In this document: positions 27,272 to 30,614 of the stretch, in pieces
How the letters are laid out: each line of letters begins with the position of its first letter
How positions within the stretch are numbered: position 1 is the stretch's first letter
Source: Candidatus Poribacteria bacterium
GTDB taxonomy: Bacteria > Poribacteria > WGA-4E > WGA-3G
DNA: 64,000 nucleotides
NCBI GenBank assembly: GCA_028821605.1
Contig: JAPPFM010000040.1
Coordinates: 1 to 64,000 of the forward strand
Direction: 5' to 3'
The notes under the pieces: model-generated
What the model was told of the DNA's origin: nothing
Databases searched by the model: none
Seen by the model: only the letters and a program-made list of their open reading frames with translations
Made by a program: the position numbers and the translations under genes

Positions 27272-27310
27272 AAGGATTTCAAAACACACTGAGAAATAAA
27301 CGAAGACAAC

Positions 27311-27345
27311 AAAAAACCCGCATCCACATCCGGATACGGGTTTTT
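27311..27345. terminator. bidirectional intrinsic terminator
   Basis: Stem AAAAACCCGCATCC/GGATACGGGTTTTT with one mismatch and a 6-nt loop. It has T-runs on both strands, and it lies between the converging FG-GAP and 27361 genes, so it can serve both. Confidence 0.9.
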
Positions 27346-27360
27346 CGTTAAAAATAAAAA

Positions 27361-28083
27361 TTACTGACGTTTGAGATCCGCCCACCGAACCGCCAGTTTG
27401 CCTTTCGGTTCAACCGGTGTAAGGACATCCAAGAACTGGTTATCCAACGTGGGGGCAATGAGAAGGTCGGTATCTGTAGCCTCAAATCGGAGGTTGAGAT
27501 AATCAGCACCGCCCGATTCACCACATTTGTAGTGCAAGAAATTCTCGCCCTTCTTGAAGTTAATCTCTGTCGGTGTAAGGACTTCGCGAACCCCGCCTGT
27601 CCAATCGGGGTTGTCATAGACCTGTTCACCGTTGAGCCAGATCTGGGCATAATCATCGTGTGCGGGATGCATTGTTGTCGTCCGGTCATCCGGTGAAATA
27701 ACGACGATGATACCGTGCCATGTAACGTTTGTTCCATCAGGAAGCCCGTGGCTTGTGGATATGTTGAACTGATCTTCGGTGTTGATATCAACAATCGACC
27801 AAGCGAGTGCGCCGCCGTTGTCTGGAAGATTAACTACGGCATGCGCTGTCTTTCCAGCACCGTCGCGTGTAGAGACGGACGCATTTGAAATCAAACCGCT
27901 GCTGCCTTCAGCGAGGTAGTCAACACCTGCCGATGTGTTAAAACCACCTGTATCGGTGACGAGGTCGAGTCCCCACCATTTTCCAATCCAATTATCACCC
28001 GCCGGTTGCCAATTCTGCGCGAATGCCATCGGCGAAATCATGACAACGCAAGCAAGTGTGATAAAGATTGCGAATTTCTTCAT
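27361..28083 (-). CDS. secreted protein of unknown function with W-x-x-L-K tail
   Basis: A 240-residue protein starting MKKFAIFITLACVVMISPMA, a clear signal peptide cut after AFA. The ATG at 28083 has AAGGAG about 11 nt upstream and is preferred to the frame opening at 28116. The mature part is beta-rich and looks like a galactose-binding or jelly-roll domain: HGIIVVISPDDRTTTMHP, YAQIWLNGEQVYDNPDW, INFKKGENFLHYKCGE. This layout (imposed phrase about a tangible object, then a held-together strand) is common in extracellular carbohydrate-binding proteins. It ends EPKGKLAVRWADLKRQ, matching the tails of the Kelch and the two PD40 proteins. A 250-nt structured leader precedes it. Confidence 0.75.
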   Translation of the reverse strand: MKKFAIFITLACVVMISPMAFAQNWQPAGDNWIGKWWGLDLVTDTGGFNTSAGVDYLAEGSSGLISNASVSTRDGAGKTAHAVVNLPDNGGALAWSIVDINTEDQFNISTSHGLPDGTNVTWHGIIVVISPDDRTTTMHPAHDDYAQIWLNGEQVYDNPDWTGGVREVLTPTEINFKKGENFLHYKCGESGGADYLNLRFEATDTDLLIAPTLDNQFLDVLTPVEPKGKLAVRWADLKRQ

Positions 28084-28182
28084 AGCTATGAAATCTCCTT
28101 CTTTAAATATACACAAGGTTCAGAGTTTTTGAGCAAGAAGCGCGCTTCCCAAAATCCCATCACCTCATCAAATTTTACTTTT

Positions 28183-28312
28183 GGTGATAGCAGTACTGCG
28201 TGCTAATCACGCATTTTAAGGCTGACATCCCATCGGTAAACCGATACCGATGACGGTTTTCGCCAGCGGTGCAATTCTTCTTTTGATCTTCTGCGAGGTA
28301 GTATACGTCACC
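28183..28312 (-). ncRNA. candidate structured 5' leader (possible riboswitch-like element)
   Basis: In the minus-strand leader of the 27361-28083 gene an outer stem (28183-28187 with 28308-28312, GGTGA/TCACC) encloses several helices. They are 28221-28226 with 28262-28267 (6 bp), 28231-28238 with 28245-28252 (8 bp, perfect), 28198-28202 with 28208-28212 (5 bp, GCGTG/CACGC), and the palindrome 28190-28199, an alternative to the latter. The motif GGCGAAAACC joins two helices. It lies between a strong promoter and a distant ribosome site. It does not fit a class I know; c-di-GMP-I was considered but lacks ACGCAAAGC. Confidence 0.4.
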
Positions 28313-28343
28313 CCGAAAAGTCGATAGAATGCACTTTAAATAA

Positions 28344-28373
28344 ATTATAGCACTTTTCACATATAAATTGCAA
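28344..28373 (-). promoter_or_regulatory. sigma70-like promoter of the 27361-28083 gene
   Basis: On the minus strand: TTGCAA (28368-28373), 18-nt spacer, perfect TATAAT (28344-28349). Transcription from about 28337 gives a leader of roughly 250 nt. Confidence 0.65.
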
Positions 28374-28441
28374 GAAAAAAGTGCAAAGCAACCGATTTTT
28401 TGTAAAGTTTAGCAAAAAACACTAATTCCGTCAACTTTAAT

Positions 28442-28470
28442 TTGATCAACGTCGTTATGTATGATATAAT
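28442..28470 (+). promoter_or_regulatory. sigma70-like promoter of the PD40 gene pair
   Basis: TTGATC (28442-28447), 17-nt spacer, perfect TATAAT (28465-28470), 88 nt before the start at 28558. The rest of the 28084-28557 gap is AT-rich and holds the divergent promoter and leader described separately. Confidence 0.75.
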
Positions 28471-28557: not shown

Positions 28558-29559
28558 ATGAAAACGATACGGTTGTTAATTTTTGCTATATCTATCCTAT
28601 TTGTGCACAAAGTAAGTGTTTCTCTGCTCTTTGCAAAAGCACCGACGACCCCCAAAATTCTGTTTACTTCTACACGGGATGGGGGTCAGCGCGATGTTTA
28701 CATCATGAACCCGGATGGCACTGAACAGGTGAACTTGACACAACATCCCGCAGAGGACCTCGAAGCCGTCTGGTCTCCAACAGGCGAGAAGATTCTTTTT
28801 ACCTCCGATCGTCGCGGTGTGCGAGATCTGTACGTGATGAATCCAGATGGCTCTAATGTCCGACGCGTCTTCAAGTTTAAGACAACGGAGTGGAGAACAT
28901 ACCCAACTTGGTCACCCGACAGCAAACAGTTCGCTTATGAATCTATAGATTGGGGTCGTTTAAAGATCACTCTCCACATTGCCACCCTTGGGGAACAAGA
29001 TTCAAAAACTCTTGTGGATGGTAGTTTTCCGGCATGGTCGCCGGATGGAACGGAAATCGCCTGTTCTGTAAGGGAACGACTCACATTAATTAATGTCCGT
29101 ACAGGCGCGCAAAAACAACTCCTACCCAAGAATGTGGAGTCTTTTCAACGCTTCCCATCTTGGTCTGCTGCGGGTGACAAACTCGCCTTCGCTTGGAATA
29201 AACACCGGGTGCCGCCTCCTGATGCGGATAGGGCTGTGCACGCGGAATGGAAGGATAAAATAACAATCTATATTGTTAATCGCGATGGCACGGGACTCCA
29301 GCAGCTTATCGAGGAAGCCGGTCCCTATGCCCAATATCCAGCACTATCGCCGGATGGAAATGAAGTCCTCTATACACAAGAAATTAAAGGTAATTTCCAA
29401 ATTTTCAAACTTGATTTAAACAGCGGAATTCGGACGCAGTTGACACATATCGTCGGGTGGAATACTGGCGGCGATTGGTTTGATCCGGCATACGCATTGC
29501 CCGTAGAGCCGCAACCAGATTTGCTAACAACGACCTGGGCAAAAGTGAAAAAGCAATAG
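28558..29559 (+). CDS. exported TolB-like PD40 propeller, paralogue 1
   Basis: A 333-residue secreted beta-propeller. Residues 1-27 form a signal peptide (LLIFAISILFVHKVSVSLLF). Repeats of the PD40/TolB type follow: DVYIMNPDGTEQVNLTQHP, AVWSPTGEKILFTSDR, DLYVMNPDGSNVRRVF, TWSPDSKQFAYES, AWSPDGTEIACS and ALSPDGNEVLYTQE. TolB relatives bind peptides or partners in the periplasm; this one lacks the TolB N-terminal domain and tol genes are not near. The C terminus is VEPQPDLLTTTWAKVKKQ, one of the four W-x-x-(L/V)-K tails. The next gene is a close paralogue 56 nt downstream, so the pair arose by tandem duplication. Confidence 0.9.
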   Translation: MKTIRLLIFAISILFVHKVSVSLLFAKAPTTPKILFTSTRDGGQRDVYIMNPDGTEQVNLTQHPAEDLEAVWSPTGEKILFTSDRRGVRDLYVMNPDGSNVRRVFKFKTTEWRTYPTWSPDSKQFAYESIDWGRLKITLHIATLGEQDSKTLVDGSFPAWSPDGTEIACSVRERLTLINVRTGAQKQLLPKNVESFQRFPSWSAAGDKLAFAWNKHRVPPPDADRAVHAEWKDKITIYIVNRDGTGLQQLIEEAGPYAQYPALSPDGNEVLYTQEIKGNFQIFKLDLNSGIRTQLTHIVGWNTGGDWFDPAYALPVEPQPDLLTTTWAKVKKQ

Positions 29560-29615
29560 ACGTAAATAATTTGTAGGGGTAAGCCTTGTGCCTACTCCTT
29601 TACGAAGGATGTCGT

Positions 29616-30614
29616 ATGAAAATAACGCGATTGTTATGTTTCGTCATACTGAATCTGTTCGTGCTGACCGTAAGCGTTTCCCCGCTTTTCGCAAAAGCAC
29701 CGACAACCCCCAAAATCCTGTTTACCGCTGTCCCAGACGATAATTATGAAGTCTACATCATGAATCCGGACGGCAGCGAACAGGTGAATCTAACGCAGCA
29801 TCCCGGAGCAGATTTGAGTGCTGTCTGGTCACCAACGGGTGAACAGATTCTTTTTATCTCCGATCGCGATGGTGTTCGAGACCTATATCTCATGGATCCC
29901 GATGGTGCCAATGTGCGCCGCGTTTTTAAGAAGGAAGCTTATAGAGGCAGACCGGCGTGGTCACCCGATGGCAAAAAGATTGCTTACATGCACCTACGTT
30001 GGGACCTTAACGAGTATCCTATCTACACCGCTACGCTCGGAGAAGAAAAAGAGAAAGAACTCATCATGAATGCTCATGATCCATCGTGGTCTCCGGATGG
30101 GACTGAAATCCTCTGCTCTTATTTTGCCCGACTTACTATTATCAACGTCCGCACAGGAAAACAAAAACAACCCTTATCAAGGAAGGTAGCGGATTGGCAA
30201 CTCCAACCGTCTTGGTCAACTACGGGTGACAAAATCGCTTTTACGGGACATAAGGATCCTCCATTACCACCGGACCGCAAGCCGGGTGATCCCTTCCCTC
30301 CCGGATGGGAGGAACCGCAGACAATTTACATCGTCAACCGCGACGGCACTGGATTCCGACAACTCGTTGATGAAGCGGGTCCGAAGGCAACACACCCCGC
30401 GATATCGCCAAATGGAGAAGAAGTCCTTTATACACAAGCAGTTAATGGCTTTCTACAAATCTTCAAAGTAGATGTAAACACCGGCGTTCGGACACAGTTG
30501 ACGATTGGGCAAAGGAATCTTGGTGGGGACTGGTTCGACCCGGAATATGCGTTACCTGTAGAGCCACAACCACATTTGCTAACAACAACGTGGGCAAAAG
30601 TAAAAATTAAATAG
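29616..30614 (+). CDS. exported TolB-like PD40 propeller, paralogue 2
   Basis: A 332-residue tandem paralogue of the preceding protein. The ATG at 29616, with GAAGGA 7 nt upstream, is chosen over the GTG at 29586. The signal peptide (LLCFVILNLFVLTVSVSPLF) is followed by the same repeats (EVYIMNPDGSEQVNLTQHPG, AVWSPTGEQILFISDRD, DLYLMDPDGANVRRVF, AWSPDGKKIAYM, SWSPDGTEILCS, AISPNGEEVLYTQA). The copies share AKAPTTPKILFT at the mature start and the final segment VEPQPHLLTTTWAKVKIK. The shared tail is conserved better than some loops, which suggests it matters. It is probably co-transcribed with paralogue 1 and with the VWA gene 37 nt on. Confidence 0.9.
   Translation: MKITRLLCFVILNLFVLTVSVSPLFAKAPTTPKILFTAVPDDNYEVYIMNPDGSEQVNLTQHPGADLSAVWSPTGEQILFISDRDGVRDLYLMDPDGANVRRVFKKEAYRGRPAWSPDGKKIAYMHLRWDLNEYPIYTATLGEEKEKELIMNAHDPSWSPDGTEILCSYFARLTIINVRTGKQKQPLSRKVADWQLQPSWSTTGDKIAFTGHKDPPLPPDRKPGDPFPPGWEEPQTIYIVNRDGTGFRQLVDEAGPKATHPAISPNGEEVLYTQAVNGFLQIFKVDVNTGVRTQLTIGQRNLGGDWFDPEYALPVEPQPHLLTTTWAKVKIK

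Follow-up and report, generated by a model that had tools for sequence, protein, structure and literature searches.

What does a leader RNA of some 250 nt do ahead of the gene for a single secreted protein? The question is raised by a locus in the window studied here, a 64-kb stretch from a Candidatus Poribacteria genome; the loci in the named collection that code for a relative of the protein are Poribacteria MAGs as well (41 of 41). One part of the answer is plain: a conserved structured 5' leader RNA, absent from Rfam, precedes the secreted-protein gene in one family of Poribacteria, and it is real. The other part, its function, has to be argued among several readings of unequal probability.

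Promoter and extent of the leader

The strong minus-strand promoter proposed in the first-pass annotation is borne out by the relatives. It occupies 28344-28373, with TTGCAA at 28368-28373, an 18-nt spacer and TATAAT at 28344-28349; the hexamers match the consensus at 10 of 12 positions, and a TG precedes the -10 (extended -10). A lone match of this kind proves little, as the promoter scan of the 3-kb region returned 7 promoter-like sites, compared with 3.9 (sd 2.3) in shuffles. All 50 orthologue regions of sufficient length have TATAAT ahead of the leader (48 caught by pattern, L040 and L056 recognized by eye); the remaining three of the 53 terminate within the leader and are too short to show it. 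A pattern search of the genome itself finds the promoter once. Transcription is predicted to start at about 28337, which gives, up to the ATG at 28083, the leader length of ~250 nt claimed originally. A weaker minus-strand promoter-like site inside the leader (28240-28213, 9 of 12 matches) could conceivably yield a shorter transcript. At the other end, a terminator scan places the likely intrinsic terminator of the gene at 27307-27350 (minus strand). A small ORF in the leader (28175-28360) was considered and rejected: gaps between relatives are not divisible by three.

An inverted repeat, GCACTTTT-N19-AAAAGTGC (28350-28384, minus strand), surrounds the -35 and reaches the -10. Its pattern occurs nowhere else in the 6.0-Mb genome. 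The 9-nt arms have 0 or 1 mismatch in 31 of 48 upstream regions (mean 3.4 in base shuffles), and both arms are altered together (ACAC/GTGT) in five leaders of a single clade; the repeat is weak or missing in one of the three genera compared below (g3). To judge from these patterns it could be a regulator's site, a possible operator, and constitutes a separate lead. Divergent from the target gene are two similar neighbouring secreted proteins (28558-30614), the first of which matches PD40 WD40-like beta-propeller repeats; for the second there is likeness alone. Positions 28442-28470 hold a promoter-like site on the plus strand.

The structured interval had been placed at 28183-28312. Structure is indeed present there, but the interval is too short: conserved structure extends from ~28334 to the start codon. 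Positions 28170-28335 fold at -51.4 kcal/mol (z -3.84), a value equalled by none of 200 dinucleotide shuffles, and the helices show compensatory change in relatives; the whole leader folds less distinctly (z -2.33, equalled in 7 of 200 shuffles). The judgement by eye that no known riboswitch class is represented agrees with the covariance models of Rfam 15, which give no match at the gathering threshold anywhere in the window. A lax Rfam search (E up to 10) gave five matches, all with E of at least 2 and none of them GEMM, which leaves the suggested link to c-di-GMP-I (RF01051) without a match even at that level. A DNA search of the same genome for a second copy of the leader found none; its five other matches are 16-25 bases long, with E of at least 0.8.

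Relatives and the conserved fold

At E up to 0.001, 79 of 97 genomes contain the protein family, and paralogues are numerous. Upstream DNA was collected for 53 orthologues, including that of the window (L007-L059), from three genera, g1, g2 and g3, of one family. Among 17 loci compared, a convergent FG-GAP/ASPIC gene adjoins the orthologue in all 17 and a divergent TolB-like gene in 11, in one case through a short match only; the six loci that lack the TolB-like neighbour are L102 (no sequence there), L108 and L109 (g2), L111 and L112 (g3) and L113 (g1). A covariance model, R1, was built from 17 g1 leaders and run over the genomes with Infernal's stricter filters. Its matches come from 36 of 97 genomes, among them the 17 that had supplied the model, at one place each and directly ahead of the orthologue: 33 of 38 g1 genomes, two of g2, one of g3 and none outside the family. 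In two of the five g1 genomes without a match the leader is cut by a contig end (G012, G014), and the other three (G003, G022, G025) have no close orthologue. Within the window the sole match is 28183-28343.

Counting covariation depends on the alignment. Thirty-two of 35 g1 leaders were aligned; L015 and L034 are cut by contig ends, and the leader of L025 duplicates that of L026. MAFFT misplaces the register of the first helix (P1) and, in one subclade, a P2 loop that is longer by 2 nt; for this reason a structure model was set by hand from 17 leaders and the sequences were re-aligned to it. A 40-row refit (22 of 35 pairs, 82 cells) was set aside because it contains eight unsuitable rows (L013, L028, L029, L045, L049, L050, L052 and a wrong-strand L038 match); the main counts come from the 32 g1 rows that remain, 31 of them distinct. 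As the refitted alignment leans towards the hand-set structure, unfitted counts are set beside the fitted ones. Default RNAalifold, run on the whole-leader alignment A1, produced a poor consensus with two-sided change at one of 33 pairs.

Across the 31 distinct leaders of the fitted alignment, 93.4% of cells are paired, as against 31.7-56.6% when the structure is slid along the sequence. Two-sided change is seen in 37 cells, where 300 shuffles average 14.3 (maximum 24) and slid structures reach at most 18; these cells count sequences rather than events, and one change inherited by a subclade is counted many times. Counted by pairs the excess is modest, 12 of 35 against a shuffle mean of 7.5 and maximum of 14, and related sequences may exceed shuffles even without structure. 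The unfitted MAFFT alignment of 17 leaders pairs in 87.1% of cells and has 18 two-sided cells (7.3 in shuffles, 0 of 500 as high); by pairs the count is 7, as against 4.7, and 45 of 500 shuffles get that far. The number of further pair types shows no excess, 379 of 500 shuffles having as many. The helices are thus conserved in homologues with two-sided change beyond the controls by cells, as in conserved structured RNA generally, and more weakly by pairs.

The supported fold comprises P1 and P2, P3, P4, P5 and a hairpin at the start codon, and differs from the one first drawn. The 5' strand of P1 (28326-28334, minus strand like all elements of the leader) begins 10 nt past the -10 hexamer, near the predicted transcription start, and its 3' strand is 28269-28278 in the model-fitted alignment. 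There, 3 of its 9 pairs show two-sided change and 85.3% of cells are paired; the unfitted figure is 65.4%, with the register misaligned. P2 (28288-28320), with the loop ACGTATAC at 28301-28308, is the helix that covaries best by these counts: two-sided change affects 8 of its 12 pairs (33 cells) in the fitted alignment and 6 of 12 in the unfitted one. Two lengths of the loop occur in the genus, ACGTATAC and CCGTATACAA, and each goes with a stem that matches it (L007 as against L036). P3 (28221-28267; GCTGGC/GTCAGC), placed by covariance-model alignment, is paired in 98.9% of cells, with two-sided change at 1 of 6 pairs in the genus, and a like stem occurs in L050. It encloses a variable inner helix, CATCGGTA/TACCGATG, in which 28245-28252 pairs with 28231-28238. 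This is the perfect 8-bp helix of the first-pass annotation; it exists, but it is lost in L009, L010, L011, L013, L014 and L020 and shorter in others.

P4 (28184-28210) is a hairpin of the form GTGAT..GCA..TGC.ATCAC around the palindrome GCAGTACTGC. In g1 it is 98.8% paired, with two-sided change at none of 8 pairs and GCAGTACTGC invariant. Its stem recurs across genera, being kept in most g3 leaders with other inner pairs, e.g. GTGATAAA/TTTATCAC or TGTAT/ATGCA; it is weak or doubtful in L046, L048, L051, L053 and L059. An alternative hairpin, TGCGTG/CACGCA (28197-28213), rivals P4 in the window; P4 is preferred because it is kept in other genera. P5 (28112-28165) is a long imperfect hairpin with the core TTTTGGGAAGCGCGCTTCTTGCTCAAAA at 28127-28154 and outer AGGT/ACCT pairs. 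Its motif A(A/G)GCGCGC is found in 48 of 53 leaders; L044 and L047 have a variant unable to pair in that register, L015 differs at one base, and L046 and L048 have no match. One pair goes from G-C to A-U in L054 and L056-L058 (L054 and L057 are near-duplicates). Together, P5 and the start-codon hairpin show two-sided change at 3 of 20 pairs, in 4 cells (32 rows, unfitted; shuffles 0.9 and 1.3). The same structure slid by +3 has 10 two-sided cells, more than the 4 in true register; P5 therefore rests more on recurrence across genera, and within g1 and g2 the covariation suggesting it is weak. The P5 loop (CUUCUU) might also pair with the Shine-Dalgarno region, but by eye this is inconsistent across relatives.

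The outer stem GGTGA/TCACC (28308-28312 with 28183-28187), which framed the original fold, is not supported. Although 88.4% of its cells are paired, none of its five pairs shows two-sided change in 31 leaders, the innermost pair is broken in 9 of the 31 distinct genus leaders, and the stem competes with better helices that claim both halves, the 5' half belonging to P2 and the 3' half to P4.

In g2, P1-P3 are gone; L029 pairs over a longer stretch that starts at nt 1, and L028 forms a small hairpin at nt 9. Between P4 and P5 the g3 leaders (L044-L059) have an additional hairpin, TTTCGGC-ATAGCTAGCAA-GCCGAAA in type, and TAGCTA, known from the start-codon hairpin, recurs in its loop.

One could suppose that conservation acts mainly on the DNA, on operator, promoter and palindromic sites, the RNA fold being incidental. 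Several of the conserved elements are palindromic, the inverted repeat overlaps the promoter, and P4 and P5 show little covariation inside g1. Compensatory changes in 8 of 12 P2 pairs argue against this, however, as do the paired cells (93.4%, where slid structures have 31.7-56.6%) and the 37 two-sided cells that slid structures, at 18 or fewer, do not approach; the supposition is highly improbable.

Output side and function

The gene (27364-28083, minus strand) encodes a 240-aa protein whose start looks, by eye, like a signal peptide. Pfam gives no family above cut-off for it, with a PA14 hint below cut-off; NCBIfam gives no match, and a sequence search of the PDB returns only matches with E of at least 1. 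AlphaFold2, run with 29 orthologues, predicts a beta-sandwich resembling a GH2 enzyme domain, with a mean pLDDT of 77.6 in the best model (48.4 to 77.6 over five models). The best Foldseek matches in the PDB are mostly GH2 enzymes (E ~1e-4, TM-score ~0.3), and VIA-align 2 superposes 135 residues (Z 10.9, rmsd 3.0) on residues 35-197 of the GH2 beta-glucuronidase 6d89_B, which we take to be its N-terminal sugar-binding domain. The modelled fold suggests that the secreted protein may possibly bind carbohydrate, a shared fold alone showing no function. Orthologues also share a C-terminal stretch, KLAT-WADxKR-like (27364-27420), possibly a sorting or structural signal.

Codon usage hints at high expression. 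When codon weights are taken from 18 ORFs around the L2 match, chosen by eye in the EF-Tu/S10 region, the gene has a CAI of 0.811; the 18 reference ORFs span 0.723-0.799 (mean ~0.77), and 45 hand-picked other ORFs of the window average 0.762 and reach at most 0.796, all below the gene. None of 368 same-length segments from 40 of these window ORFs reaches 0.811, and 12 of 2000 synonymous versions drawn at window codon usage do. This bias, the highest among the genes compared, would lend mild support to high expression; it is only mild because the reference genes hardly differ from those of the window (~0.77 against 0.762).

What could a leader in this position control? The Shine-Dalgarno sequence AAGGAG is at 28095-28100, and a palindromic hairpin, TTTCATAGCTATGAAG (28078-28093), holds the ATG. 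The combined Shine-Dalgarno and start pattern is single in the genome, and 46 of 53 leaders have TTCATAGCT unaltered before the ATG, with the largest deviation in L054, L057 and L058 (CTCTTAACT). Computed over 49 of the 53 leaders, the Shine-Dalgarno is unpaired with probability 0.38, as against 0.33 when the upstream leader is mononucleotide-shuffled, so it is not specially hidden; the value exceeds 0.5 in 9 of the 49. For the AUG that probability is 0.22; it is paired for the most part, an argument for translation being restrained. No intrinsic-terminator-like site was found on the minus strand inside the leader.

A metabolite riboswitch of a new class would account for a long multi-helix leader with conserved unpaired bases. 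The output side speaks against it: with neither a terminator nor a special block of the Shine-Dalgarno in view, a classical riboswitch is unlikely, as far as can be said when ligand-bound folds are not predictable. Rfam has no match, the leader occupies one place per genome and paralogues use other leaders; a new class of this kind is very unlikely. Of the two kinds of control originally proposed, by a ligand or by a protein, that by a ligand is the less probable. Nor does the A/U-rich hairpin enclosing the ATG readily make an RNA thermometer, as its exposure is computed to be nearly equal at 37 and 20 C (AUG 0.22 and 0.19; Shine-Dalgarno 0.38 and 0.35) and a start-codon hairpin would have no need of P1-P4; a thermometer is extremely unlikely.

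Another account places the leader at the 5' end of a protected message. Transcription usually starts ~7 nt past the -10. Of 31 g1 leaders, 24 have their first stable pairing 8-11 nt past the -10, six have it earlier and one has it at nt 15 (the start site itself being predicted), and P1 would thus stand within a few nt of the 5' end. By nt 11 pairing has begun in 30 of the 31 genus leaders; in g3 a stem is present by nt 11 in 9 of 15 leaders and first at 16-22 nt in the other six. Together, the position of the stem, the absence of a terminator or Shine-Dalgarno block, the codon bias and the leaders of paralogues suggest an mRNA-protecting 5' leader like that of ompA, the reading preferred here at a probability of about 0.4. 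The transcript would begin just ahead of P1, which would tie the 5' end into a stem; P1 and the hairpins downstream would slow attack on that end, as the ompA leader does in E. coli, and a long-lived mRNA would then yield much secreted protein from one gene.

Plain protection may not be the whole story: near-invariant loops are not needed for it, and a mostly paired AUG counts against it. Among the 32 aligned g1 leaders, CGTATAC in P2 is unchanged bar a deletion in L013, and GCAGTACTGC in P4 and GCGCGC in P5 are unchanged throughout. Each of four conserved elements, P2, P4, P5 and the start-codon sequence, contains a self-complementary hexamer. On top of protection, then, a second and regulated layer is probable, in which a small RNA or a protein would bind the near-invariant loops and the start-codon hairpin.

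The main rival makes such binding the whole function. An sRNA or RNA-binding protein would read the loops (ACGTATAC in P2, GCAGTAC in P4, CGCGCUU in P5) and the start hairpin, and would set translation or decay. The constancy of the loop sequences across the genus, the pre-start sequence kept in 46 of 53 leaders and the low exposure of the AUG would all fit. Still, GCAGTACTGC is lost in g3, the P5 core is lost in L046 and L048, and the start sequence differs in 7 of 53 leaders; control in trans alone, by a putative partner RNA or protein, is a possible account, if a rather unlikely one. More speculatively, and quite improbably, this could be a lineage-specific class of leader whose self-complementary loops (GTATAC in P2, AGTACT in P4, GCGCGC in P5, TAGCTA at the start) dock a symmetric partner that tunes output of the secreted protein, each paralogue having evolved its own version. 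The partner proposed for such docking is either a second copy of the same mRNA, in a kissing interaction, or a dimeric RNA-binding protein.

Paralogue leaders and known systems

Paralogues of the protein (33-44% identity, several in tandem; L138-L157, L143:1777-1897) carry structured leaders of their own. One set, class A, comprises 16 leaders selected for their pattern and by eye, with an early hairpin, H1, and a second, H2, before the Shine-Dalgarno; L140_2383 and L147_2796 resemble them but were left out, as the promoter pattern is missing there. In the unfitted alignment of class A, two-sided change affects 23 cells, where shuffles give 9.1 and none of 500 comes as high, and slid versions give 5 or fewer; the pairs affected number 7, as against 4.4, and 23 of 500 shuffles attain this. 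A covariance model of class A, R2, was run over 36 g1 genomes, of which 29 have one or two places; in 24 more distant genomes, a sample without g2 or g3, it finds none at E up to 1. Run on the window leader and three g3 leaders, R2 gives no match. Other paralogue leaders have, by eye, GCAGGTTCCTAAAACCTGC-like hairpins before TATAAGGAGG.

Poribacteria are partners of marine sponges and are uncultured; descriptions of their regulatory RNAs seem few: a literature search, judged from its listings, found nothing on a Poribacteria leader or on structured regulatory RNAs there. Poribacteria transcription has been reported (PMC5087111), and the accessible part of that paper does not name the gene for the 240-aa protein. 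The conserved RNA described here is well defined, and its target gene is clear. It points to a secreted, possibly sugar-binding protein family, at least two classes of which carry leaders with conserved structure. Should the leader serve high expression, the protein would be a candidate major product of the symbiont in the sponge.

Four kinds of leader invite comparison. The class A leaders are distinct from the window leader yet similar in plan: in common are an early hairpin followed by another (TTAGG/CCTAA type) and by the Shine-Dalgarno, and a paralogous protein, but they are shorter (111-132 nt) and R2 does not match the window leader. The c-di-GMP-I riboswitch (GEMM, RF01051) resembles it in being a structured leader and in nothing more; the window leader has no covariance-model match at E up to 10, occupies one place per genome, and has no expression platform in view. 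With leaders under sRNA or protein control it shares structure, conserved exposed loops and a conserved start-codon sequence; those have a known trans partner, whereas here the partner is putative. Examples described in PMC7509114 are ompA with MicA and the rne leader.

The closest likeness under the preferred reading is to ompA. Its 5' untranslated region is an mRNA stabilizer in E. coli, and papA and aprE have comparable 5' stem-loops. The mRNA of ompA is very stable in fast growth, with stem-loops and 5' UTRs among the protective features (PMC7509114); primary papers on the 5' regions of ompA, papA and aprE are cited in PMC3997798. At ~250 nt the window leader is longer than that of ompA; it also has more helices, a hairpin that covers the start codon, and loops that are near-invariant, and is likened to it by plan and by a predicted 5' end. 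Both are long leaders of exported proteins in which one stem lies close to the 5' end (the predicted one, in the window leader) and others precede the Shine-Dalgarno.
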